NCBI RefSeq assembly: GCF_023702715.1
Contig: NZ_CP098480.1
Coordinates: 1,488,001-1,552,000 of the forward strand
Reading direction: 5' to 3'
DNA: 64,000 bases
DNA from: Acinetobacter sp. C32I
GTDB lineage: Bacteria > Pseudomonadota > Gammaproteobacteria > Pseudomonadales > Moraxellaceae
The notes beneath the pieces were generated by a model, which did no database searches, was not told the DNA's origin, and worked only from the letters and a program-made list of their open reading frames with translations. The translations under genes and the position numbers were made by a program. Shown piece by piece: positions 11,000 to 33,099 of the stretch. Positions within the stretch are counted from its first letter, which is position 1. The number at the start of each line of letters is the position of its first letter.

Positions 11000-12451
11000 C
11001 TAAATTCCTAAACACATATATTTAATGGTCATGAACTCTTCCAAACCATATTTAGAGCCTTCACGACCTACACCCGATTGTTTCACCCCGCCAAATGGCA
11101 CCACTTCATTGGAAATAGCAGTTGAGTTCATCCCGACCATGCCATATTCCAGCTGTTCAGCGACACGCCAAATTCGTGAAATGTTTTCGCTATATACATA
11201 AGCAGCTAAACCAAAAATGGTATCGTTAGCTTGCGCCACCACATCCGCTTCCTCAGTAAAACGAATCAACGGTGCCACAGGTCCAAAAATCTCTTCCTGA
11301 ACAATCTCCATATCACGCGACACATCAGTTAACACGGTCGGTTCAAAGAATGTCTGACCCAATGAATGCTGTTGACCACCGCACGCCACTTGGGCACCTT
11401 TGCCACAGGCATCATCAATCAACTGTTGTGCTTTCAGTACTGCTTTATCATTGATTAATGGCCCAATCTGCACATTCGGTTCCAAACCATTGCCGATTTT
11501 GAATTTCTGTACTTCTTGCACAAATTTCTCGGTAAAAGCCTGATAAACCTTGTCATGTACATAGATTCGATTGGCACAAACACAGGTTTGACCTGCGTTA
11601 CGGAACTTGGCAAAGATTGCACCTTGTACCGCTTTATCCAGATCAGCATCATCAAACACGATCAATGGCGCATTGCCACCCAGTTCCAGTGCCAACTTTT
11701 TAATGGTGCCTGAGCATTGCTGCATCAATAAACGACCGACAGGTGTAGAACCAGTAAAGGTCAGCTTTTTGACTTTTTCATGACTGGTAAATACTGAACC
11801 AATCTCTTGCGATTTGCCTGTCACCACATTAATGACACCCGCTGGAATGCCCGCCATTTCTGCCAGCTTGGCAATTGCCAGTGCGCAATAAGGTGTTTCA
11901 TTGGCAGGCTTGATTACAATGCTACAGCCTGCCGCCAAAGCAGGTGCTGCTTTACGGGTAATCATCGCAATCGGGAAATTCCATGGCGTAATTGCTGCAA
12001 CCACACCCACAGGTTCTTTGGTGATAATAAAACGCTGTTGGCTATTGGTGGTTGGAATCACATCGCCATAAACACGTTTGCCTTCTTCCGCAAACCATTG
12101 AATAAATGAAGCTGCATATTTCACTTCACCCAAAGCTTCGGCTAAGGGTTTACCCTGCTCAATGGTCATGATCCGTGCCAGCTCATCAGCATGACTCAAA
12201 ACCAGTTGATACCAAGCCAATAACAGGTCTGCACGTTTTTGTGCAGTCAAACCTTTCCATGCAGCTAAAGCCTGATACGCCACTTCGACTGCTTCGGTGG
12301 CTTCTGCTGCACCCATATTGGGAATGACACCAATTTCCTCACCTGTCGCAGGGTTAGTGACAGGAATGGTGGCATTAGATTGTGCACTCACCCATTGACC
12401 ATTGATCAGTCCGTGTTGTTGAAATAACGGACTTGCTTGCAAACTTGACAT
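11000..12451 (-). CDS. NAD(P)-dependent aldehyde dehydrogenase, probable malic semialdehyde dehydrogenase
   Basis: 483 residues, whole ALDH fold: N-terminal coenzyme domain with ITPWNFPIAM and FTGSTPVGR, active Glu in ELGGNAP, and catalytic Cys in NAGQTCVCANR. It resembles succinate-semialdehyde dehydrogenases of the GabD type. It sits between cntA and cntB, and carnitine cleavage releases malic semialdehyde, so oxidation of that aldehyde to malate is the inferred role, as shown for the A. baumannii carnitine cluster. Substrate is not readable from the sequence itself. Confidence 0.88.
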   Translation of the reverse strand: MSSLQASPLFQQHGLINGQWVSAQSNATIPVTNPATGEEIGVIPNMGAAEATEAVEVAYQALAAWKGLTAQKRADLLLAWYQLVLSHADELARIMTIEQGKPLAEALGEVKYAASFIQWFAEEGKRVYGDVIPTTNSQQRFIITKEPVGVVAAITPWNFPIAMITRKAAPALAAGCSIVIKPANETPYCALAIAKLAEMAGIPAGVINVVTGKSQEIGSVFTSHEKVKKLTFTGSTPVGRLLMQQCSGTIKKLALELGGNAPLIVFDDADLDKAVQGAIFAKFRNAGQTCVCANRIYVHDKVYQAFTEKFVQEVQKFKIGNGLEPNVQIGPLINDKAVLKAQQLIDDACGKGAQVACGGQQHSLGQTFFEPTVLTDVSRDMEIVQEEIFGPVAPLIRFTEEADVVAQANDTIFGLAAYVYSENISRIWRVAEQLEYGMVGMNSTAISNEVVPFGGVKQSGVGREGSKYGLEEFMTIKYMCLGI

Positions 12452-20879: not shown

Positions 20880-21827
20880 TTAAAAGTTTACGGTAGAAAT
20901 CTCTTCTACAACCTTTAATCCTTGCTGCGTTTTTTTAACTGAGTACATATTTAAATCCATTGATGAGGCTAAGCCAAATTGAAGCCGTGTGCTCAAAAGA
21001 ATTGAAATTTTACTGCTGTCATTTATCAACTGTGGCTCAAGTCTTTGTAAATTATCTGCGAACTCTTGTGCGAAAAATGAATTTTTAAGTTTTATTGGAT
21101 CATTGATCTGCACATCAAATAAAATGAGTTGAACCTCTGATCCATCTTCCATTTCTGAAATCCGTTTTACATGGATAATTTCAGGCTGACCGCCCTTAAA
21201 CTTTTTAATTTCAACAGTATTATTGCGGTCAAACAAATTGAAAGAAGAAATTCCAATGCCTAAACCCATCAACGTAATCAATGCTGCAAAAATCTTATGC
21301 TTAGTCCACATCTCAGGAACTTGTTGTTCTTGATCATCTTTTTTTAAATTAATCACCATTGAACCCGCAACGAAGTCATGAATGGAGCGGCGGTTTTGTC
21401 GGTTAAAAATATAAAAATAAATAAGCAAAATTTGTAAGCAGGCCAACAACAGGTTGAATAATTCAGATAATAGTAAAATCGGAAAATAACCGCTTAATGA
21501 CATGAGGCATGATGGCGCAAACAAGATGGCTGAACGAAGCAATGATGGGATTACATCAAGATCTTTCCCATGTGTGTCAGCCACTTTGATTTTTAAAAGC
21601 TGTTTGCCAAACGTTTGTCCAGAATGTAAGTGGCTGTTTAACAAACCAAAATACAAAACAACAAAGAAATATCCAATAAAAATAGATATAACTGGAAATG
21701 GATACATAAACTCAGAGAGAAGTCGAATCGTACTCCAGCAGAAACCTCCTACCAATAATAAATCAATAAGAAAAGCGAATGATCGGCGCCAGAAACCAGC
21801 AATATAAGAAAATTTTACAGAAGACAA
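20880..21827 (-). CDS. RDD-domain integral membrane protein
   Basis: 315 residues. An N-terminal RDD domain (about 8-165) starts with GFWRRSFAFLIDLLL and has several membrane helices; FGKQLLKIKV and RSIHDFVAGSMV are typical RDD-like stretches. Another helix lies at about 178-200 and a soluble C-terminal domain of about 110 residues follows, probably periplasmic. The start is a TTG at 21827 with AAGGG six bases ahead; no ATG fits. It is the last gene after the lipoprotein array. Function unknown. Confidence 0.8.
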   Translation of the reverse strand: MSSVKFSYIAGFWRRSFAFLIDLLLVGGFCWSTIRLLSEFMYPFPVISIFIGYFFVVLYFGLLNSHLHSGQTFGKQLLKIKVADTHGKDLDVIPSLLRSAILFAPSCLMSLSGYFPILLLSELFNLLLACLQILLIYFYIFNRQNRRSIHDFVAGSMVINLKKDDQEQQVPEMWTKHKIFAALITLMGLGIGISSFNLFDRNNTVEIKKFKGGQPEIIHVKRISEMEDGSEVQLILFDVQINDPIKLKNSFFAQEFADNLQRLEPQLINDSSKISILLSTRLQFGLASSMDLNMYSVKKTQQGLKVVEEISTVNF

Positions 21828-21916
21828 AACATACCCTTTATATTTAATTAAAAATTTATAACGTTAGCTATCAAACTAAAATTTCAAGATTATATAATAA
21901 ATCCTAATAAAATACA

Positions 21917-22366
21917 TTAATGAAGCATCTCACCCAAGGCTTTTATATTCAACCACTCTTCATCTGTATATTTCATTTTAGCCAATAATTTTTGATCACT
22001 AATTTTTCGTTTATACTGTTTATATATATTAATATTATTTTTATTCAAAAATTCAACATACTCACCACCATTTTCATTGCGATGGAATTCAGCAAAAAAC
22101 AAAACTGTATAAAATTCTTCCCGTTGAATTTCATTCAACCCTACTAATAAACTATCCAAACGATTATAAAAATCACTATAAGGATGGTTTCCACAAAAAA
22201 TTTTCTGATCAATACGATTGATCGCCTGCTGTACCTTTAGATCATGACTTAGTTCAATCACTCTCTTATTAAAATTATGAATACATGATTTTTGCTTAAC
22301 TAGAGAACAACTTGAAAGAGATGCAAATATTAGAAAAATGAGTAGTTTCTTAAAATACTTTTTCAT
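21917..22366 (-). CDS. Small lipoprotein of unknown function
   Basis: 149 residues starting at ATG 22366, which has a GGAAGGA site; a TTG at 22378 is less likely. The signal peptide ends in the lipobox LSSC, followed by SLVKQKS. The mature part is helical and charged (HNFNKRVIELSHDLKVQQ, then NENGGEYVEFLNKN). No family is recognised and it does not share the YYxYC pattern of the other lipoproteins. Position in the AT-rich tail of the T6SS island suggests an accessory or immunity role, which is unproven. Confidence 0.7.
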   Translation of the reverse strand: MKKYFKKLLIFLIFASLSSCSLVKQKSCIHNFNKRVIELSHDLKVQQAINRIDQKIFCGNHPYSDFYNRLDSLLVGLNEIQREEFYTVLFFAEFHRNENGGEYVEFLNKNNINIYKQYKRKISDQKLLAKMKYTDEEWLNIKALGEMLH

Positions 22367-22416
22367 TCCTTCCCTCAATAATAAATATTACACATAAATT
22401 TCAATAGCTTGCGATA

Positions 22417-22893
22417 TTATCTTTTATCTTTCAACTCTTCTAGTTTACTTTTTGCTTCAACACTCCCCAACAAACTAGCTTTCCTTAACCAATTTTTAGC
22501 TTCAGCCAAATCTTCAACTTTATTCTTATTTAATAAAATTAAAGCCAACTGCAACTGTGCATTTTCATGGTTTTTATTTGCCGCCAACCTGTAATAATAC
22601 TCTGATTTACTTATATTTCTATCACTACCCAGACCCCTTAAATAAATAATACCTAAAGCATTTTGCGCAGAAGCATCACCTTGTTCAGAAGCTTTTTCAA
22701 GCCATCTCTTAGCTTGATTATAATCTTTTGGGTAACCTTCATCACCATTTAAAAAATTCATTGCAATATAATATTGCGCATCAACATTACCAGTTTCTGC
22801 TAATTTAAATTCATGACTACTTTCATATGGAACACTATTTGCGCAAGCACAAAAAAGCAAGCTTAAACCAAATAATTGTAAAAATTTAAACAT
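22417..22893 (-). CDS. Sel1-repeat lipoprotein
   Basis: 158 residues from ATG 22893 (an in-frame ATG at 22911 is also possible). The hydrophobic leader ends in a lipobox-like FCAC. Three Sel1/TPR-like repeats follow: AETGNVDAQYYIAMNFL, then AKRWLEKASEQGDASAQNALG with IIYLRGLG, then AKNWLRKASLLGSVEAKSKLE. Sel1 proteins are protein-interaction scaffolds and are common among secretion-effector neighbours. Here it sits among likely immunity lipoproteins downstream of an Rhs effector, so a role in binding an effector in the periplasm is a reasonable but untested idea. Confidence 0.82.
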   Translation of the reverse strand: MFKFLQLFGLSLLFCACANSVPYESSHEFKLAETGNVDAQYYIAMNFLNGDEGYPKDYNQAKRWLEKASEQGDASAQNALGIIYLRGLGSDRNISKSEYYYRLAANKNHENAQLQLALILLNKNKVEDLAEAKNWLRKASLLGSVEAKSKLEELKDKR

Positions 22894-22948
22894 GTTAATC
22901 ACAAAAACCATTATAAAACAAAAAACATAGCCAACTTAATATCGAAAA

Positions 22949-23407
22949 TTAATCCAAATTAATTACTGGAATTTCGTCTTTAATACAATGCTTAACCTCT
23001 GCTTCGCTATATGACAATCCAACTGACCATTCATTTATATTTTCATATTTTATTTCCTCACCATCATAACCATAGTGTTTTGGATTTATTGGATACAACA
23101 CTCCCATATATATCTTTTTACCAAAACAATATTCAAAAAAACTATCATGACTTGATATTAGCACCCAACCATCATCTTGCAATTTTTTTTGTATATTTTC
23201 AAAATCACCAAATGACATTTTTGATTTTTTCACCTCTGCTGTGGCGTACTTATTCATAGGCTTATCAATCCAAACTTTCTCTTTTGGTCTGAACTTCCCA
23301 AAGTATTTATTAACTACACTATAAAAATATTGATCTTTCTCTTTTTCCTCAGTACTTGAACATGCAGTCAGCAAAACAGATAAAAACAATATTGAAATAA
23401 ATTTCAT
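22949..23407 (-). CDS. Lipoprotein paralog 4 of the putative Rhs immunity family
   Basis: 152 residues with signal peptide and lipobox LTAC. Mature core: WIDKP, then KKLQDDGWVLISSHDSFFEYC, then YPINPKHY and the C-terminal CIKDEIPVINL. It is clearly the sister of the gene at 23569-24090 (shared VDKP/IDKP, DGW.LIS, YPI.P.HY, LSY, C.KDEIPVI). Two conserved Cys outside the lipobox suggest a periplasmic disulfide. Inferred role: immunity or orphan immunity against an Rhs toxin acting at the envelope. Confidence 0.75.
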   Translation of the reverse strand: MKFISILFLSVLLTACSSTEEKEKDQYFYSVVNKYFGKFRPKEKVWIDKPMNKYATAEVKKSKMSFGDFENIQKKLQDDGWVLISSHDSFFEYCFGKKIYMGVLYPINPKHYGYDGEEIKYENINEWSVGLSYSEAEVKHCIKDEIPVINLD

Positions 23408-23568
23408 AAATTTACTCTTAATATTTAACCTACAGTTAAAAATAAAATACTAATCGAAGCACCAGCATCTATTTCTCAGCCAAAATCTATTTCTATTGTT
23501 TTATAGATATTAATATTATCTCCAAGAAATATTAAGAATACGTCTAAAGACAGTATTTCAAAACTTAT

Positions 23569-24090
23569 TCAAATTATCTTTTTAAATTCATCTAATTTAA
23601 TTACGGGTATCTCATCTTTTCTACATTGATTCACTCCACTTTCTCCATAAGACAACCCTACTATCCAGTCATTAATATCTGTATATTTAACTTCACGCCC
23701 TTCAGGGTTGTAATGATGTGGTCGTATTGGATAAAGTATACCTATATGTATTTTCTCACCCAAACAATACTCATAGTAGCTATCTTGATCAGAAATAAGT
23801 TTCCAACCATCAATTTCCAATTTCTTACGAATATGAGAAAAATCATTTAAAGAAAGATTTGATTTTTTTATTTTAGTAATTGAATATTTACTTTCTGGCT
23901 TATCAACCCAAATTTTTTCATTTGGTTGATATTCCCCAAAGTATTGATTAATGACATGTGTAAAATACTTACCTTGTTGAGTTTCTTCAACGCTAGTGCA
24001 AGAACAAAGATATACTATAAAAACTAAAAAACTAGCTTTCTTTAATGCTTTTTTATTTATAAAACAATCTAAAAACAAAATATTCGACAT
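23569..24090 (-). CDS. Lipoprotein paralog 3 of the putative Rhs immunity family
   Basis: 173 residues from ATG 24090 with an AGGT-rich ribosome site. A long N-region leads to the hydrophobic stretch FLVFIVYLCSC, whose last Cys fits a lipobox. The mature core matches the gene at 22949-23407 along its full length (WVDKP, IDGWKLIS, SYYEYC, YPIRPHHY, GLSYGESGV, CRKDEIPVI). It reads more weakly like the gene at 24585-25037. The extended N-region makes the start slightly uncertain. No named family is recognised. Confidence 0.74.
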   Translation of the reverse strand: MSNILFLDCFINKKALKKASFLVFIVYLCSCTSVEETQQGKYFTHVINQYFGEYQPNEKIWVDKPESKYSITKIKKSNLSLNDFSHIRKKLEIDGWKLISDQDSYYEYCLGEKIHIGILYPIRPHHYNPEGREVKYTDINDWIVGLSYGESGVNQCRKDEIPVIKLDEFKKII

Positions 24091-24098
24091 ACCTACCT

Positions 24099-24551
24099 CT
24101 ATTTATAATTATGACATATATATGAGGTTGTATTATTAGCTTTATAAAATATTATATGCCAATCATCATTTAATTGCATTGCAACAGAACCTTCGGCCAA
24201 TTCTTTATTACCCACAACAACTCGCGGTGCAATAATTTCAAGTTGTCTTTTATCTCTACAAAATATATAACTTTCATTATATTTTTGATGATATTTCCAT
24301 CCCATTCCTTTTAGTTGCTTATCTTTCTTGTTAAAAAAAATATTGATCTTAAATTCATCTGCTTTAATTTTATATGAAACCGTATTCGAGCTATAAGATG
24401 AGTAACCCTTTAGATCGCCAGCTTTACCATCAAAAAGGACACTAGCCTCATTTACAAAGTCCTGATTTACTTTATCTATATAGGGTTTTCGTTCTACCTC
24501 CTTATCACATCCGACTAACAGAAATGAGAGGATTAAAATAATTTTTCTCAT
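24099..24551 (-). CDS. Lipoprotein paralog 2, divergent member of the putative immunity family
   Basis: 150 residues from ATG 24551 (an in-frame TTG at 24560 is rejected). Lipobox LVGC ends the signal peptide. The core keeps the pattern GMGWKYHQKYNESYIFC and a C-terminal YIC, which mirrors GW-...-SYY-x-x-C and a final Cys in its neighbours, but most of the rest has diverged. It lies 8 bp before the next lipoprotein gene, in operon spacing. Inferred to be a diverged immunity protein; a general periplasmic lipoprotein is the alternative. Confidence 0.68.
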   Translation of the reverse strand: MRKIILILSFLLVGCDKEVERKPYIDKVNQDFVNEASVLFDGKAGDLKGYSSYSSNTVSYKIKADEFKINIFFNKKDKQLKGMGWKYHQKYNESYIFCRDKRQLEIIAPRVVVGNKELAEGSVAMQLNDDWHIIFYKANNTTSYICHNYK

Positions 24552-24584
24552 ACAAGCCAAATCAAAGTAAAAAATACAAAATAA

Positions 24585-25037
24585 TTACTTACCATAATAC
24601 TCCATACAATTATTAACGCCTAGCTTATTGTAATAAATTGCAAAGTACCAATAATCTTTGCTTTTAAAATTAACTTCTTCACCGTCTCGTGTATAATGCT
24701 TATCATAAATCGGATTTAATATGTCTATCGAATAATGGTTAGTTTTACAAAAATTATAATAACTATTATAAGAATCCACCAAATCCCACTTCCTCTTTAG
24801 TAGATCATTTTTTACACCCTCATAATCTTTGCTAGAAAAATCTTGTTTTTTTATTTTCACTACTAAAAGTTGAGTTGAGCTCTTTTCCCTATCAGTGTCA
24901 TATTCATATTTATATCCTTTAAATATTTCATTAGAAAGTTCTTTTAAGTCAATTTTCTCAGGTACATCATTCTCACTTACAGAGTTACAGCTTATAATAA
25001 GACAAGAGAGAAATATATAATATAATGCTTTTTCCAT
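24585..25037 (-). CDS. Lipoprotein immediately downstream of Rhs, candidate cognate immunity protein
   Basis: 150 residues with a short signal peptide and lipobox-like IISC. The core has KIKKQDFSSKDYEGV, KRKWDLVDSYNSYYNFC, NPIYDKHY, RDGEEV and GVNNC, in the order seen in the paralogs at 22949 and 23569. It starts 10 bp after the Rhs stop, the usual place of a cognate immunity gene. A lipoprotein implies that protection takes place in the periplasm or at the inner membrane. The pairing is inferred from position only. Confidence 0.75.
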   Translation of the reverse strand: MEKALYYIFLSCLIISCNSVSENDVPEKIDLKELSNEIFKGYKYEYDTDREKSSTQLLVVKIKKQDFSSKDYEGVKNDLLKRKWDLVDSYNSYYNFCKTNHYSIDILNPIYDKHYTRDGEEVNFKSKDYWYFAIYYNKLGVNNCMEYYGK

Positions 25038-25047
25038 TCTATAACCT

Positions 25048-28000
25048 TTAATCTTGTGTACGAACTAAAGTCGGTTTACTATCACTTACGCTTATATCAA
25101 CTCCTGGCGTACCAATACCGACTTCCACACCTACAGGGCCATTCCGATCAAAAAAGGATCCCGCAGGAGTTGTTACTCCAAATCTAGCTCCCCACCAACC
25201 AACACTTTGGGTAACTCCCATACCAGTTAAAAACTCATCTGTGGCTTTGGAGTTTGTTAAGCCTGATGGCTTATTAAGGATATAACCAGCCATACAGCTT
25301 CCACTAAACATTTTCTTCAGTTTATTTAAATTTGCAGCACCAACTTTAAAACTATTATCTATACTTTTTTTAGCAATATCACCAACTGTTTTAGCATGAT
25401 CTTTTGCATCTTTCATACCAGTTAATGAGATTCCGCCAGCATTATAGACATTACCATTATGCAAATTATAAATTTTAGAACCCCCTAATACTGAAAAACC
25501 TCCTGAGCATATAACATAATCAAAAAGTGGTTCTACGGCTATTTCACATTGCTTTCCTGTTTTTAGCCAACAATCGTAATTCCGTTGACCTTGATATGCT
25601 ATACCCGACTGGGCACTAGCAGGAATACCAAACATTTCACCATAATTAAAACTATTCAACCCTTCTGGATCAATCCATTGATTCGGATTATTTACATAAG
25701 CGGAGGTATTCATACCGCCCTCAAGTCCTATCGGATCTTTACTTATATACCTTGCACTATACGGCTCATAATAACGATAACGGTTATAATGCAGTCCTGT
25801 TTCATTATCGTAATACTGACCTTGGAATCTAAGATTACTCTGCTCAAATGGATTGTCCTTATTGAGTATTTGAATCTCGAGTGCGGTCCCCCACGTATCC
25901 TGAGTAATTTCCCAAACACATTCACCTGCGGCATTACTCAGTGTTTGCGGTGTTCCAACTTGATCACAATGATAAAAAGCAGTTTGCTCTAAAGCCACAC
26001 GGTTTTTACGTGTATCGCTGCTCCAAATCGGATCTTTATAAACCGAATAAGGCTTGTTGAGGTATTCACTATAATCAGGGGTTTCAATCAGCTGAATAAA
26101 ACCCTGATATCCTGCTTGCATTAACGGTACAAAGCTATCAGGCTCATAAACATAATGTTTGGTATAGCTATTTTCAGGATGATTCGAATTTTGGCTAGAT
26201 TCCCAAATCATCAAATCACCATCCCAACCAAATAAAGTGAAATCTTGGTTTGATGATTTCTTATATAAACGACGTCCAAAAACATCATAACCATACTGAG
26301 TCACTTTCCCATTCAAGTTACTTTGAATCAAACGGTTATGATTGTCCCAAGTCAGCTTTAAGACCTTACCATTTTGCGTGGTTTCAATCACATTGCCTTG
26401 TACATCATATTGATAATGCTTGCCTTGATACTGCTTGATTAAATTGTTTTTGGCATGTGTTGTCTGGTTAATTGGGTCAACCAGATTCCCCGCTGGATCG
26501 AACTTAAAACTCTCGTTTTTATGCTGACTCTGGGTTGAAATCAAACGTCCAATCGGATCATATTGATAATTAAACTGTCCTAAACGACTGTCTTCAACTT
26601 GGGTGAGCAAATAATTTTTATCGTATTGATAATGTCTATGTGCTTGATAACGGAGTCGATCTGAGGTTTCTTGCTCAGGCTCAATCTGTTGAGAAATCAG
26701 TAACCCGACATCATTATAATGCTTGGTTTGTACCAAACCATTTGCCAAGAAACGTACCGTTTCACGATGCAAATCATCACGTTGGAAAGAAACAACATCC
26801 TGTTGGTTAAACGCAATTCCGTAGATATGTCCTGAACCATAACTCAGATTGGTCTGTTGCTGTCCATCGGGACGAATGGTTTTAACAGGATTGCCAAGTT
26901 CATCATATTCATAACGCAGTACAGCCGTTAGATTCAACATTTTATAATGCTGGTGTTCACGCACCAATTGTCCAAGCTGATTACGATACAGTTGAACCTG
27001 ACTTTCTGCATTACTGGCTGAGCTTAATTGTTGATTTAAATTATATTCAAATTGCTCTGACTGGCTTTGATGAGTATGCAGATGCGTATATGTTTTAGAA
27101 GCAATCTGTCCATCATCATAATAGCTAAATTCAGTCAGAATATTGGGTTGTCGAATCTGGAATAATAGACCATTTTCACTATAGCTATAATGCTTTTCTT
27201 CACCATCAAATGCTTGTTCGCGAACTAACTGACCAAACTTGTTATAGCTAAACTGGTATTCAGCCTGATTTTGGTTAATAAGCTTTTGGATACGACCCTG
27301 CTTATCCCATTGATAGCCCACACGGTGTTGATTGGCATCAATACGTTGTTCTAACAGGCCGACAGTATTGTATTGATATTGAGTGGTTAAGCCATTGGTA
27401 TCGGTGTGTTTGAGTAGACGCCCTTCTTGATCATGCTCAAATAGTTCTTTCAAGCCATCTGGATAAACAATCGCTTGAAGTTGCCCTTTATCTTTACCTT
27501 GCATACTATACAGATATTGAACTTTCTGTTCATTTGCCGCTTGCTGGGCACTTAGATCACCTTCTTCATCATATTCCCATGTACTGCTTTTGCCCGAACA
27601 ATCAGTATAAGACAGCATTTGTCCTTGATCATTGTATTGGATTTTCTTGATACCTCCTTTGGCATCAATCACTTCCACCACTTGATTATTGTTATTGTAT
27701 TTATATTGGGTAACATGGCCTAAAGGATTAATCTCTTTGCTGACATTGCCCTGTGCATCATATTCACGTTTCCAGATATTGCCTTCTGGATCTTTGGTCT
27801 CGGTTAAATTGCCTTGTTCATCATAAGCAAAGCGAATCACACCACCATTCGGCTGTACAATTTTCGCCAGTTGGCCCTGATCATTATATTCTTGCTGAGT
27901 TTCCCGACCTTCAAAGTCAATCTGTCGGGTGATGCGTTTTTCACCGTCACGAGAATACCAAGACTCTCGACCATCGGCTAAACGAGTGCGATAGGTAAAA

Positions 28001-29841
28001 CCATCCAAATCAAAATAATAATAGGTTGGTACATCATAGGCATCGTAAACCGCAACTTGACGTAAACGTGGATGCCATTTTAGTTTGGTATGGAAACTGC
28101 CATCATCCGCCCACTCTTCAATGGCTTTGGCATTTGGCAACGTCGATTCATAACGAATATTTTGTCCACGGTCTGTGCGATCGGTATAGCGCGTTAATTG
28201 GTGCGCCTGATTATATTCATATTGACGTGCATACCCATTTTGATCGAAAGCTGTAATCAGATTACCTTGTGCATCATAGTGATAGCGTGCCCAAGGCTTA
28301 ATTTGATCATCCACAAATACCGCAATAATCTTAACTTGCTCATTAAAAGCAAATTTTAGTTGGTGCTGAGCCTGTTCAAACTGAAAATCAATGGCTTGAA
28401 GATAAGCAACACCATCTGCCAAAAGATAACTTAGGCTAATTTTTTCATTGGTGTTTTCATTAAATTGTTGAATTAAATGATAGGGCTGACCAAGACCAAA
28501 TTGATGAAAATGGAAACTCCAGTCACCGCCGAAATCTAATAGCAAATCTCCATTTCCAACTGGATGAACCGTCATTCCTTCATAAGGAACGGTATAAGCC
28601 TGCTGCAAAATCGTAGATGGTAAGGCATGTTTACGCCCTTTCGCATCAATAAAGACGTAACCTTGTTCTTTTGGCAAAATCACATTGGAAAAAGGCATCA
28701 TCCAACGAGCGCCCATCATCCCCTGATCAAACTCATCCATTTGCGAGTTATATTGGCGACTAAATACAAAACCAACTTTAGGTAAATAGAAATCGGCATG
28801 CTGAACCCGCTCTGCACCAATTGAATAACTGATACTCTTACCCGTCTCTGAACCATTACCTTCACAAGGCGGTGCATTCAACGCATCCGCCTGTAAGCTC
28901 ACAAACTCTAAGGTATCCCCTTTGGTATGGCGCTCATATTCTCCCGTCTGATTAATCGGCACACTGGCATTGCCTTTATTTTCGCTGGCCTGAATCGCAG
29001 TTAAAGTTTGTTGTAATAACCAAGCCAAACTATATTTCTGCCCTGCATTGGCTTGCTGCTGTAAAGTCTGGCTTAAAGTTGCAATTGCTTGTGTTGCTTT
29101 CTGTTGCAGGTGAGTTTGAATATTGGGTTGTAGTTTAGGGGTTAAATCTGCCTGACTCGGTTTACCGATTAAATCAATGAGAGGTGCAGCCCAATTGCTA
29201 AATTTGAGTTTGGGGTCTCTTTTCTCTGCTGTTGCACCTGCCGACGTTGCAGCCATGTTCGCACTTATTGCTGTCGCAGGCACAGACAAGCTCGTCAGAA
29301 TACTGCTGCCTAAGGTCGTTGCCTGTGAGAGTAAGGTCGCTAATTTGGCTTGTGTTTCTTGTAAAAACTTTTCTAAATCACCTGCGACCATCGCATTCAA
29401 ATGCAGGCTCAAGCGTTTAATATCCGCGTCTTTAATCTTTCCATTTTCTGGATATAAACATTGCGACATTAGACCAAACATCGGACGTAATGCCATACGC
29501 GCATGTGCTTCATTGCTTGGTTCAGCAAATAAACCAATTAAATTTGCAGCGAGCAAAGCACCCTGTTGTACACCTGCATCCTCTGTCTTGCTGTCGGTCG
29601 TGTATAAAATTAAATCCAGCACACTGCCGGTTAAAGCAAAAATATTGGCTACCGTTGCAGTATTCGCACTCCCTTGTAATTGTTCTAAACTGGTATTCCC
29701 ACATACCTGTAAATAAAGCTGGATTTGCTTGGCAATCATTTGCAGGTCAGTTACCGTGTGTACGCTGTCCAAATTAAAAACAGCAAGTTCAACCTTCGAC
29801 GCTTTTTGATCTGTTGCCTGTTGTGTTTTTTCCGTAGCCAT
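25048..29841 (-). CDS. T6SS-associated Rhs effector with unrecognised C-terminal domain
   Basis: 1597 residues from ATG 29841 (TTG at 29850 is rejected). Order: an N-terminal helical, partly hydrophobic region of about 330 residues without a visible PAAR motif; an Rhs/YD-repeat shell of about 1000 residues with many YD motifs (such as YEYDELGNPVKTIRPDG); and the core end with RYYEPYSARYISKDPIGLEGG and NPNQWIDPEGL. After that DPEGL motif 202 residues remain (about 25051-25656), containing YNLHNGNVYNAGG and GVEVGIGTPGVDISVSD; no toxin family was recognised. Known Rhs proteins encapsulate and release such a tail. VgrG upstream and lipoproteins downstream support T6SS delivery. Confidence 0.92.
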   Translation of the reverse strand: MATEKTQQATDQKASKVELAVFNLDSVHTVTDLQMIAKQIQLYLQVCGNTSLEQLQGSANTATVANIFALTGSVLDLILYTTDSKTEDAGVQQGALLAANLIGLFAEPSNEAHARMALRPMFGLMSQCLYPENGKIKDADIKRLSLHLNAMVAGDLEKFLQETQAKLATLLSQATTLGSSILTSLSVPATAISANMAATSAGATAEKRDPKLKFSNWAAPLIDLIGKPSQADLTPKLQPNIQTHLQQKATQAIATLSQTLQQQANAGQKYSLAWLLQQTLTAIQASENKGNASVPINQTGEYERHTKGDTLEFVSLQADALNAPPCEGNGSETGKSISYSIGAERVQHADFYLPKVGFVFSRQYNSQMDEFDQGMMGARWMMPFSNVILPKEQGYVFIDAKGRKHALPSTILQQAYTVPYEGMTVHPVGNGDLLLDFGGDWSFHFHQFGLGQPYHLIQQFNENTNEKISLSYLLADGVAYLQAIDFQFEQAQHQLKFAFNEQVKIIAVFVDDQIKPWARYHYDAQGNLITAFDQNGYARQYEYNQAHQLTRYTDRTDRGQNIRYESTLPNAKAIEEWADDGSFHTKLKWHPRLRQVAVYDAYDVPTYYYFDLDGFTYRTRLADGRESWYSRDGEKRITRQIDFEGRETQQEYNDQGQLAKIVQPNGGVIRFAYDEQGNLTETKDPEGNIWKREYDAQGNVSKEINPLGHVTQYKYNNNNQVVEVIDAKGGIKKIQYNDQGQMLSYTDCSGKSSTWEYDEEGDLSAQQAANEQKVQYLYSMQGKDKGQLQAIVYPDGLKELFEHDQEGRLLKHTDTNGLTTQYQYNTVGLLEQRIDANQHRVGYQWDKQGRIQKLINQNQAEYQFSYNKFGQLVREQAFDGEEKHYSYSENGLLFQIRQPNILTEFSYYDDGQIASKTYTHLHTHQSQSEQFEYNLNQQLSSASNAESQVQLYRNQLGQLVREHQHYKMLNLTAVLRYEYDELGNPVKTIRPDGQQQTNLSYGSGHIYGIAFNQQDVVSFQRDDLHRETVRFLANGLVQTKHYNDVGLLISQQIEPEQETSDRLRYQAHRHYQYDKNYLLTQVEDSRLGQFNYQYDPIGRLISTQSQHKNESFKFDPAGNLVDPINQTTHAKNNLIKQYQGKHYQYDVQGNVIETTQNGKVLKLTWDNHNRLIQSNLNGKVTQYGYDVFGRRLYKKSSNQDFTLFGWDGDLMIWESSQNSNHPENSYTKHYVYEPDSFVPLMQAGYQGFIQLIETPDYSEYLNKPYSVYKDPIWSSDTRKNRVALEQTAFYHCDQVGTPQTLSNAAGECVWEITQDTWGTALEIQILNKDNPFEQSNLRFQGQYYDNETGLHYNRYRYYEPYSARYISKDPIGLEGGMNTSAYVNNPNQWIDPEGLNSFNYGEMFGIPASAQSGIAYQGQRNYDCWLKTGKQCEIAVEPLFDYVICSGGFSVLGGSKIYNLHNGNVYNAGGISLTGMKDAKDHAKTVGDIAKKSIDNSFKVGAANLNKLKKMFSGSCMAGYILNKPSGLTNSKATDEFLTGMGVTQSVGWWGARFGVTTPAGSFFDRNGPVGVEVGIGTPGVDISVSDSKPTLVRTQD

Positions 29842-29910
29842 CAATCTCAAACCCTTAATTTATTTCAATACATCTATTTTTAAATTGCTGCGCGTGAATT
29901 AAAATCTGTC

Positions 29911-32900
29911 CTAACCATTGTTCTGACCATGAAAACGATCAACGATGCCTTGTTGAAGAATCGAATCCATTTGGGTGGCCTCCGCCAATTTTGTCGCTGC
30001 CTGATCTTTTACAAAACCCACACCCTGTGCTTTGATCATGTCAACCGACTGGCTCGGATTCATGGCGAGTTGCGCCAAGCTTTTCATTTGATCTGGAGAA
30101 ATATTAAGGTTCAGTTGCTTTGAAACAGCACTTAAAGCGGTATTGCTGACTTGATCCTTGATTTGCCCAACCGTCTGCTCAACCAAACCATTTAAGGTAT
30201 TTTTACCTATATTTTTAAGGCTATTTTTATCCATCGAAACTAAACTGCTGCTCAGCTGTTGCTTCATGTTCTGTCCCAATGCACTGCTTAATGAGGCGGC
30301 AACTTTTTCTACTGGCTCTGCCCAAGTATAATCACGTTTAAAGTCACTACTTGATGCCCATGCACTGGTCTCATCTTTTTCAAAAATGACCTTGGCTGCG
30401 CCTGGTGCAATGCCTGTCACTTGAGCAAAACCATTTCCATCCAGTTTGCCAGTCAGTTGCTTCCCCAGAGAATCAATCACTTTATAGCTGTTCTGCTTAA
30501 AGAAATTATCTCCCCCATAACTTCTTAATAACTGTAGCGCGCCTTTCAGTGATTTTGCTTGTGGTAACTGGGGTGCATTGCTACTTGCACTCGCGCCTGA
30601 GGCGAGTAAATGCTGACCTGCTTTTGCTTCAAACTTACCACTGGTCACAGGGAAAATACCTGATCCATTCAGCTTAATCTGAGAACCACCCGCAGTAATC
30701 ACAATCTCTTTCGGACTACTGATCTCAATACGATCTTCAGTTGAGATAATCTGAATGCCTTGCTTGGCCAGTAAATCCATACCATCTGACTGTGCTTGGA
30801 CTTCAAACTTACCTTTGGCAGCAACTTGTTTAATCCCATTCTGCGCTGCAAATACACTGATTCTGTTTTGCGCATGTGTAACCAGATTTTTCTGTGTGCT
30901 TAGATTGATACTATCGCCCGCAAACTGATTGATCTGTCCATCCGCAGATAAATGAATATCTTCATTGGTACTTAGGCCAATCCCTGCTGGCGAGTTCAGC
31001 AATAGCAATGATTTTTTAAACTGAGCGATCTTCTCTTGAATCTGCTCAGCAAATTCTTTGAGTTGATCCAGCGATTCTATTTCATCAGTCTGCTGATTCT
31101 TGGCCACTTCACTTAGAGCTTTGGCATTGTTTTGATTGCCCTCTAGCTGTTGTTTAGCAACTTGGGCATCCAGATGCTGGCCTTGGGCTTGATCCTGTTT
31201 ATGCGTGGAAAGCAGTAAACCCTCGCCTGCACGGACTGCACCCCATTGATCAGTGCGCAGTTCAAAACCTTCACCGCGGTCTTCACTTTCTGCTGTTGAT
31301 TTAGGGTGACTCAGTTTGCCGAGATTGAGTTGACTGGCTGCATGACTGCTTTGCAACTGAGCACTGATCTGACCTGTGGTGTCATCAAAGCGCAGTTGGT
31401 TAAAACCTTCGCCCTGATATTCTTTTGACTTGATCCCTGCCAGTTTCTTGGTGTCAGGCAGCTTACCTGCATGGTCAAATCTAGTTGGACTACGATGGCC
31501 TTCGTGGATTCTTCCCACTACAAATGGACGGTCGATATTGCCATCAAAGAAGTCGATGACTACGATTTCATCAATTCGTGGCAAGAAGCGTGCACCATAG
31601 CCTTCACCTGCCCAAGGCGTGAGTACATCCACCCACGCTGAATCAGTGTCATTGTCATTCGCGCCTGCACCACCATCATGGCTGTGATCGTCATTGCGAG
31701 TAAACAGGAAACGAACTTTAATCCGTCCCCATTCATCCACATAGATTTCTTCGCCGCTTGGCCCAACTACTTTGGCACGTTGTGGTGAAGCTGCTGGACG
31801 GTGTTGTAAGGGATGATATTCAGGAACGGTTTTAATGCTACGGCGTTGCAAAATCAGTTGATTGGCTTGGCGTTCGTCACTCTCTTTTATTTGCCAATTG
31901 CTTTGTGCTAATAATTGATTGATCTGTTGATGTAGATCTTTAGGCAAGTTGTTTTGGTTATAAAAGTTTTTGCCTGTGATCAGGAATTCTTTATCACTGC
32001 CATCATGCTGATCAATTTCAGGGTGTTCAGCCAATTCAAACCAGTAACCGACATGGGTATCGCGCACGGTGCTATGGGCTGTAAATTGTTTGGATTGTAA
32101 GTCGTAGTATTGACCCAAGTTCCGATTCAGTTTTTCGATCTGTGTATTGCCCGATGGGGTTGCACCATCTTCCCCATTCAGGTCTTGCATCCATGCCGGT
32201 GAAAAGTGCCATGCCTGTTCCAGACCAAGACTGGCATTGTCATGTTGTTCGCTGTGTTGATGTGTGCTCTGTACACTGCCTGCGCCATCTTCTTGTTCCA
32301 GTGCATCCGCTTGCCAGCGTTGTACATGCACGCTGCTCGGTTGTAATGAACGTTGTCCAACCAAACTGGTCATGCTGTCGTATTGTTCGGTGGCACTGCT
32401 GCGGTGATAACGGATCTGTCGTCGCTCTAAGGCTTGGTACTGGCTATTGTCGTCAATCAGGCGTAGTTTTTGCGGCTGAATCGCAGCACTGCTTTGCGCG
32501 ACTGTTCGTTCAGCTTCATCAATGAGCCAGTTGATCGATTCGCTACGCATCAAAGATGTTAAAAAATCTTCATCTGATTGATTATATTGCATAATAAAGG
32601 GACGAATGTCGTAGTCTTGACTGAGTCCGCTTAAATCAAGCGTTAAGCTGGATGCAAATAAGGGGCTTTTTTGTTGCCACTCTTTGAAGATAATTTCCAC
32701 CACATCACGCACGCTCTTGTTCATAAATACGCGGCTGTTACGGCGTTGTTTCCATAGTGCGGTGGGATCTTCTAAAGTCAGTTTATAGACAGTAAGGCTA
32801 CCGTCTGATTGTCCTTGTAAGGCTTGAGTAATAATCCCTGTAACACGAGTGAGTTGACCTTGATCAGTCACCGTATCAATTGCCGCTTGGCTACCAATAA

Positions 32901-33099
32901 ATTGTTTGAGTGGAATGGTCGCATTGGTCGACAGGCAAATCAGTTCTGCCTTAAATCCATCATTCAGTTGATGCTGACCATCAATACGCTGTAGGAAGAC
33001 TTGAGTATTTAAGTTTTGATTAGAAAATTGAATATGGATTGCACGTTTTTGTGCAGTAAGGCCCAAACTGTCCAAGGCCTGAAATATATTACTCAACAT
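29911..33099 (-). CDS. vgrG: VgrG spike protein with C-terminal adaptor-like extension
   Basis: 1062 residues, long for VgrG. Order: gp27/GPD-like domain (to about 400), gp5 OB-fold (about 440-560, VDEWGRIKVRFLF and WVDVLTPWAGEGYGARFLPR), DUF2345-type region (about 600-830, with LLLSTHKQDQAQG), then a transthyretin-like stretch (about 860-920, TGKLDGNGFAQVTGIAPGAA) and a helical tail. Such C-terminal extensions often bind a cargo effector, here presumably the Rhs protein encoded 69 bp downstream. The ATG is preceded by an AT palindrome (TATTTTATAAAATA) and no clear Shine-Dalgarno site. T6SS structural genes are not in the window. Confidence 0.94.
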   Translation of the reverse strand: MLSNIFQALDSLGLTAQKRAIHIQFSNQNLNTQVFLQRIDGQHQLNDGFKAELICLSTNATIPLKQFIGSQAAIDTVTDQGQLTRVTGIITQALQGQSDGSLTVYKLTLEDPTALWKQRRNSRVFMNKSVRDVVEIIFKEWQQKSPLFASSLTLDLSGLSQDYDIRPFIMQYNQSDEDFLTSLMRSESINWLIDEAERTVAQSSAAIQPQKLRLIDDNSQYQALERRQIRYHRSSATEQYDSMTSLVGQRSLQPSSVHVQRWQADALEQEDGAGSVQSTHQHSEQHDNASLGLEQAWHFSPAWMQDLNGEDGATPSGNTQIEKLNRNLGQYYDLQSKQFTAHSTVRDTHVGYWFELAEHPEIDQHDGSDKEFLITGKNFYNQNNLPKDLHQQINQLLAQSNWQIKESDERQANQLILQRRSIKTVPEYHPLQHRPAASPQRAKVVGPSGEEIYVDEWGRIKVRFLFTRNDDHSHDGGAGANDNDTDSAWVDVLTPWAGEGYGARFLPRIDEIVVIDFFDGNIDRPFVVGRIHEGHRSPTRFDHAGKLPDTKKLAGIKSKEYQGEGFNQLRFDDTTGQISAQLQSSHAASQLNLGKLSHPKSTAESEDRGEGFELRTDQWGAVRAGEGLLLSTHKQDQAQGQHLDAQVAKQQLEGNQNNAKALSEVAKNQQTDEIESLDQLKEFAEQIQEKIAQFKKSLLLLNSPAGIGLSTNEDIHLSADGQINQFAGDSINLSTQKNLVTHAQNRISVFAAQNGIKQVAAKGKFEVQAQSDGMDLLAKQGIQIISTEDRIEISSPKEIVITAGGSQIKLNGSGIFPVTSGKFEAKAGQHLLASGASASSNAPQLPQAKSLKGALQLLRSYGGDNFFKQNSYKVIDSLGKQLTGKLDGNGFAQVTGIAPGAAKVIFEKDETSAWASSSDFKRDYTWAEPVEKVAASLSSALGQNMKQQLSSSLVSMDKNSLKNIGKNTLNGLVEQTVGQIKDQVSNTALSAVSKQLNLNISPDQMKSLAQLAMNPSQSVDMIKAQGVGFVKDQAATKLAEATQMDSILQQGIVDRFHGQNNG

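Follow-up and report, generated by a model that had tools for sequence, protein, structure and literature searches.

A tandem array of four lipoprotein genes behind a Tse15-type Rhs effector in Acinetobacter sp. C32I as a probable stock of immunity genes against versions of one toxin domain

In the T6SS clusters of Vibrio cholerae, arrays of orphan immunity genes lie behind one effector, and each orphan resembles the immunity gene of another strain (PMC5361080). Protection was shown for SMDB11_2280, a tail-less orphan of Rhs1 in Serratia marcescens Db10 (PMC10539506). The EsaG and TipC immunity paralogs of firmicute T7SS form strings of homologous, recombining genes, and TipC has a 5' homology block and a signal that is probably of the lipoprotein type (PMC9484751). 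A. baumannii is reported to have a few orphan immunity genes (PMC6833914). The toxin domain of Tse15 (Rhs1) from A. baumannii AB307-0294 is lethal to E. coli upon cytoplasmic expression and is inhibited by Tsi15 (Rhs1I) (PMC11461821). Among the listed titles and abstract beginnings of open-licence papers, none dealt with Tse15-family immunity arrays or lipobox joins.

The locus described here lies in a 64,000-nucleotide stretch of the genome of Acinetobacter sp. C32I (contig NZ_CP098480.1), hereafter the window, the positions of which are used throughout. All genes of the locus were encoded on the minus strand. Downstream of a VgrG gene (29911..33099) was an Rhs effector gene homologous to A. 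baumannii tse15 (25048..29850, listed from a TTG start), with a C-terminal toxin domain of the Tse15 type that extended over 25051..25542 by profile. The four open reading frames that a first-pass annotation had reported behind the Rhs gene were all present. Gene 1 (24585..25037, 150 aa), in the cognate position, starts 10 bp past the Rhs stop and is followed by the putative orphans gene 2 (24099..24560, 153 aa), gene 3 (23569..24090, 173 aa) and gene 4 (22949..23407, 152 aa). Genes 3 and 4 are separated by a gap of 161 bp (23408..23568), which was conserved in displaced copies of the block. Gene 2 was listed from the TTG at 24560, and the ATG at 24551 is the more likely start since it directly precedes a typical signal peptide. 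Directly behind gene 4 a Sel1-repeat lipoprotein was encoded (22417..22911), followed by a 3' flank common to several relatives (20880..22378) with genes for a small lipoprotein (21917–22378) and an RDD protein (20880–21827).

For comparison, 30 genome stretches were fetched besides the window (designated L034, L037 and so on, followed by the gene position). Sel1 proteins were found directly behind another type of Rhs toxin in A. gyllenbergii (L034 8676, 37% identical to the window Sel1 protein) and in G065 (L040 14382). Because Sel1 proteins adjoin a different Rhs toxin type in these relatives, the Sel1-repeat lipoprotein of the window may be a fifth orphan immunity protein, directed against that other toxin type.

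The window Rhs protein aligned over its full length with Tse15 (PDB 8uxt, 8uy4; phmmer E 0, residues 4–1591), the clade domain and the Rhs core included. A toxin-domain profile (A3), constructed from 17 domains with that of the window among them, matched the C-terminus of Tse15 (E 3.5e-38, residues 1449–1601 of 8uy4). A T6SS sheath gene (VipB/TssC family) was present in the genome, and the window Rhs is a predicted T6SS effector of the Tse15 type. Searches of the 17 toxin domains against NCBIfam and Pfam returned three single matches (E 0.019–0.1), with no Vap family among the Pfam matches. The model of the toxin domain had eight strands at low confidence (mean pLDDT 63.3). Among the best 50 Foldseek matches, the top three were VapG and VapB of Rhodococcus equi (probability 1.00, E 2.5e-3 to 1.4e-2), all others had a probability of at most 0.25, and none had an E of 0.001 or better. 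Vap proteins are eight-stranded barrels (PMC4089522, PMC4118825), and the resemblance of the modelled fold to the Vap beta-barrel is a lead only. An amphipathic-strand test for a pore was not convincing (z per sequence −1.6 to 1.0, single strands up to 3.2).

The four genes behind the effector gene were homologous and aligned throughout. The lipobox cysteine Cys17, Trp84, Cys97, Pro109 and Trp130 (gene 1 numbering) were invariant among the four, and in an alignment of 50 family members W84, C97 and C144 were invariant and P109 was present in at least 90%. The core GW/KW-(x)-S-Y/F-Y/F-x-x-C, reported in the first pass for all four genes, was found in genes 1, 3 and 4, while gene 2 has an isoleucine at the third step of S-Y-x. 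The second cysteine reported near the C-terminus corresponds to the family-wide C144, although in the four-gene alignment gene 2 was not lined up at this position. Genes 3 and 4 had been called very close; they were indeed the closest pair of the four, but merely 53% identical. A strong divergence of gene 2 was not borne out, since it shared 25–26% identity with the others and gene 1 shared 24–29%.

The lipobox of gene 1 is LIISC and ends at residue 17. Lipoboxes were assigned with a home-made rule and by visual inspection. A signal peptide with lipobox was recognised by eye in all four window genes, and by the rule, which picked the wrong cysteine in gene 1, in 54 of the 63 full-length family members. 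The four genes probably encode lipoproteins, in which the two cysteines beside the lipid-bearing one would suit a periplasmic disulfide. No Pfam or NCBIfam family reached its cut-off for the four lipoproteins; the best NCBIfam match below cut-off was Riean_0653 (E 0.002, 19 bits against the 57 needed). A Pfam search with 50 lipoproteins gave nine families, each matched by no more than two of the lipoproteins (best E 0.0067). The AlphaFold model of gene 1 showed an alpha/beta mature domain predicted with confidence (mean pLDDT 88.6), which had no match in the PDB (best E 0.13).

The lipoprotein family and the toxin domain occurred together. The lipoprotein profile matched 23 of 175 Acinetobacter genomes and the toxin-domain profile 19, all of them inside the 23 (Fisher 7e-22). 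Since the toxin profile was derived from loci reached through the lipoproteins, the search was repeated with the window toxin domain as a lone query; it matched 13 genomes, all inside the 23 (6e-13 by chance for the 12 others). The lipoprotein profile matched only the window's own genome among 390 sampled genomes of the order (E ≤1e-4). The toxin domain turned up in 12 of 299 sampled genomes of the family, and all 12 belonged to Acinetobacter. When the 30 stretches and the window were searched with profiles in six frames, a family gene lay at most 200 bp downstream of 21 of the 23 toxin-domain places (two toxin pieces in L047 were counted as one place); the exceptions were L052 6211–6708 and a weak piece in L053. 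The identities of the toxin domains and of the first genes behind them co-varied (Mantel r 0.90, p 0.0001) in 16 of the 21 pairs, the five pairs with incomplete toxin or immunity pieces being left out. After five near relatives were dropped, the correlation for the 11 non-redundant pairs was r 0.78 (p 0.0002).

Family members did not lie mainly far from T6SS genes: 75 of 81 units followed either a loose toxin domain or an Rhs gene (70 assigned by rule and 5 by reading), the 81 units corresponding to 80 genes, one of which was split over two fetched stretches. The six units without an Rhs link were in L043, L049, L050, L051, L056 and L063. Members or pieces away from Rhs genes (L049 10216, L051 9130, L043 7876 and L050 9155) were found beside ThiF, ecotin, GDYXXLXY and PALP genes; such members may be solitary antidotes, remnants or proteins with another role. 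The lipoproteins as a whole are the predicted immunity family of the Tse15-type toxin domain. That the candidate antidotes are lipoproteins suggests that the target of the toxin is reached from the periplasm. In the available part of PMC6833914, the group 15 (Tse15) immunity protein does not appear among the proteins for which a signal peptide or transmembrane segment is stated, and this silence either counts against the periplasmic reading or reflects start-site annotation.

Gene 1 was 92% identical to a gene of A. gyllenbergii (L034 9603) that lies behind a remnant of the window toxin type; the remnant was 98% identical to the window domain over 57 residues and 93% over a slightly longer stretch. 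It was 64% identical to L040 11331, which lies behind a 90% identical domain. From these matches, gene 1 is most likely the immunity gene for the resident toxin. The other three genes matched first genes behind other versions of the domain. Gene 2 was 64% and 56% identical to the first genes L045 11406 and L047 8761, whose toxin domains were 24% and 19% identical to the resident domain, and the tree placed it in one clade with the first-position genes belonging to the L045/L047/L057 version of the toxin. Gene 3 was 88.6% identical to the first gene L037 11013 (toxin domain 32% identical to the resident one), and gene 4 was 76% and 70% identical to the first genes L038 11078 and L039 10208 (toxin domains 34% and 33%). 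Over the mature parts, identities to the best foreign first gene were 66% for gene 2, 94% for gene 3 (L037) and 83% for gene 4 (L038), compared with 23%, 27% and 22% to their own gene 1. Each of the three window orphans was also closer to a foreign cognate than to its array neighbours. Because the toxin domains of L037 and L038 were 84% identical and their first genes 53%, genes 3 and 4 may between them deal with two close versions of the same toxin. The first-pass proposal of one cognate and several orphans against rival versions is strongly supported by sequence comparison, each extra gene having its match in a foreign first gene behind a different Tse15-type domain, and the strain appears to hold a modest reserve of antidotes taken over from elsewhere.

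Across all genomes, 18 of the 21 orphans with a resident cognate resembled a foreign first gene more than that cognate; L038 7116, L055 10370 and L042 5137 were nearer to their own cognate. A foreign first gene with at least 50% identity was found for 21 of 43 orphans, including all three of the window, and not for the other 22. These 22 included a clade of ten, none of which lay behind a recognised toxin domain (L034 11163, 11587, 11975 and 17122; L042 8454 and 9103; L058 9939 and 10592; L060 9137 and 9525); its toxin may be an undescribed version. In A. higginsii, an old orphan (L038 7116–7574) was 85% identical over the mature part to the present cognate (11078–11548), as though an earlier encounter with this toxin version had preceded its acquisition.

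Copies of the window block were present behind other toxins in A. gyllenbergii (window 22906–25068, 92.6% over 2172 bp), A. higginsii (22949–24915, 94.3% over 1968 bp) and A. sp. A7.4 (22949–24554, 91.2% over 1617 bp). The gene order was the same in the three species, which carried the block of genes 1–4 or its later part. The head of the shared block ended just inside the end of the toxin gene in A. gyllenbergii, inside gene 1 in A. higginsii and at the start of gene 2 in A. sp. A7.4; such differences would follow from the joining of new modules to the front of an existing array. The copy of gene 3 was in pieces in all three species, at different points, and contained a stop in A. vivianii, and the copy of gene 4 was in pieces in A. 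sp. A7.4, so copies have been lost repeatedly. In total, 7 of the 81 family units were split into two or more pieces. Relatives also had loose toxin pieces with a family gene behind them (L034 9413, L041 10363 and L040 10802). The very long array of A. gyllenbergii (L034 9603–20000 and L035 2–196) comprised 15 family units, the last of which extended into L035; several Sel1 proteins and toxin pieces were interspersed.

The earlier observation that no displaced toxin tails are left between the genes was confirmed for the Tse15 type over 22949–25037, the gap at 23408–23568 included. A six-frame profile search of this region (open segments of at least 18 residues, E ≤0.05) detected no Tse15-type pieces, a search that a tail of an unrelated type could escape, and its open reading frames had no matches to the Rhs core. 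In relocated copies, DNA similarity often began near the lipobox cysteine. The sharper joins changed from about 45–65% identity upstream to 93–100% soon downstream, while the change was gradual in the pairs L037/L039 and L045/L048. Break points were measured from the last fitting cysteine, and a junction seen from two genes was counted once. From 37 pairs, 5 running to an edge were removed, which left 32 usable; one more, without lipobox, was dropped (L045 11406/L048 10523, whose similarity starts at +3 without a sharp drop). Of 14 distinct break points, 6 were within −10 to +35 nt of the cysteine codon and 10 within −66 to +84. Compared with an even spread over 800 nt, the p values were 6e-5 (6 near) and 3e-5 (10 near); this null is rough, because break points deep in a gene destroy it and stay invisible, and the merging was done by eye. 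The tandem duplicates L042 8454–8894 and 9103–9558 (90% DNA identity) were similar from the lipobox cysteine on.

The mature part of gene 3 matched the L037 gene from the lipobox on, and the signal peptides were unrelated. Mature domains have apparently acquired other signal peptides in frame. As the similarity often starts near the lipobox, signal peptides would have been exchanged and no toxin tail would remain. As a rule, an aspartate behind the lipid cysteine keeps lipoproteins in the inner membrane. The residue in this position can change along with the signal peptide: it was Asn in gene 1 and Asp in its A. higginsii copy. In gene 2 it was Asp. A wider proposal, which we consider speculative and on the doubtful side, is that the lipoproteins are modular, their mature domains moving from one signal peptide to another through lipobox joins that build tail-less arrays and can alter the residue behind the lipid cysteine, and so perhaps the membrane to which the antidote is sorted, and that the toxin is a Vap-like eight-stranded barrel acting on the periplasmic side.

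The first-pass annotation had read the array as amplification and diversification in place, that is, one gene was duplicated locally and the copies diverged, aimed at the resident toxin or its drifting versions. The window genes are all homologous and lie head to tail, as local duplication would leave them, and true local duplicates exist elsewhere, for instance L042 8454 and 9103; moreover, L055 10370 was closer to its own cognate (52% identity) than to the best foreign one (29%). However, the window copies shared 24–29% identity with each other (genes 3 and 4, 53%) but 88–93% with genes elsewhere, in the tree they fell into different starred clades together with foreign first genes, and the same block order was found in other species. 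Genes 3 and 4 in particular were 53% identical to each other, compared with 86–89% to genes elsewhere, and amplification in place is not supported. The same block behind other toxins in other species argues for acquisition and displacement. Local duplication of the window array was rejected on the basis of the identities, the tree and the foreign first-gene matches, and we regard it as very unlikely.

Genes 2–4 could also be passengers, leftovers of displaced modules without present function. The gene 3 copies broken at different places in relatives, and the 7 units in more than one piece, fit this. In contrast, all window copies were open and had a signal peptide, and the dN/dS of the mature parts was mostly 0.1–0.3. 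In 12 comparisons with other genomes, the mature-part dN/dS ranged from 0.09 to 0.56 (gene 1, 0.11–0.20; gene 2, 0.14–0.30; gene 3, 0.09–0.30; gene 4, 0.12–0.56), and whole-gene values reached 0.76 (gene 4 against its A. higginsii copy, mature part 0.56). Selection on the mature parts was mostly purifying, with comparisons to a cognate copy partly measuring selection on the cognate. Since no terminator-like site was found in 22300–25300, read-through from the Rhs gene is possible, which also speaks against mere debris, and genes 1–4 may be read together with the Rhs gene; promoter-like sites in the same region were fewer than after shuffling (12, shuffle mean 17). We consider the passenger explanation unlikely, if less so than local duplication. 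Lipoprotein signals and a position behind Rhs would equally be expected of T6SS envelope accessory factors, for example assembly or delivery helpers that are not antidotes. Yet the identity of the lipoproteins followed the toxin domain, which differed between loci with Rhs cores 94–97% identical, and a toxin piece with a family gene also occurred without an adjoining Rhs core (L040 10802, L034 9413). An accessory role is the least probable of these explanations and hardly credible.

We favour, with a probability of about 0.82, the reading of the array as an immunity stock against versions of the Tse15-type Rhs toxin, with gene 1 as the cognate and genes 2–4 as orphans, grown by displacement. 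It draws on the observed homology, co-occurrence, position, co-variation, foreign matches, shared blocks, break points and mostly purifying selection. The gene 1 product would be exported, anchored in the envelope and bind and neutralise the resident toxin when injected by a sister cell, protecting the recipient. Genes 2, 3 and 4 would do likewise against other domain versions in other Acinetobacter, those matched by genes 3 and 4 being close to each other. The toxin would act in the periplasm or at a membrane. Newly arriving Rhs-CT and immunity DNA would join the head of the array, replace the resident toxin and keep the older immunity genes, in an order of events that we infer. The join would often occur at the 5' end of the immunity gene near the lipobox and swap the signal peptide in frame, which would keep the mature domain and leave no toxin tail.

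The locus offers a matrix of four immunities against four toxin versions, which bears on whether orphan immunities protect and on the number of toxin versions covered by a single gene. A join that falls at the signal peptide of the immunity gene is offered as an explanation for arrays without toxin tails.

Like Tse15, the window effector is a full-length Rhs homolog with the matching C-terminal toxin domain. Unlike Tsi15, which is encoded upstream of tse15 (PMC11461821), the window lipoproteins are encoded downstream of the Rhs gene, and the available parts of PMC11461821 and PMC6833914 describe no orphan array for the Tse15 toxin. The array behind one effector, with each orphan resembling an immunity gene from elsewhere, recalls the Vibrio cholerae clusters, but here one lipoprotein family faces versions of one toxin domain, and joins are often at the signal peptide. 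The Serratia marcescens Db10 Rhs1 system differs in its NADase toxins, with one orphan shown and a second suggested; signal peptides do not figure in the available parts of PMC10539506. Strings of homologous, recombining immunity paralogs are shared with EsaG and TipC, which recombine mostly via shared homology blocks, whereas the DNA upstream of the sharper joins described here shared only about 45–65% identity. Orphan immunity arrays built by displacement are already known, and the array of the Tse15 family is an addition that extends them to this family.
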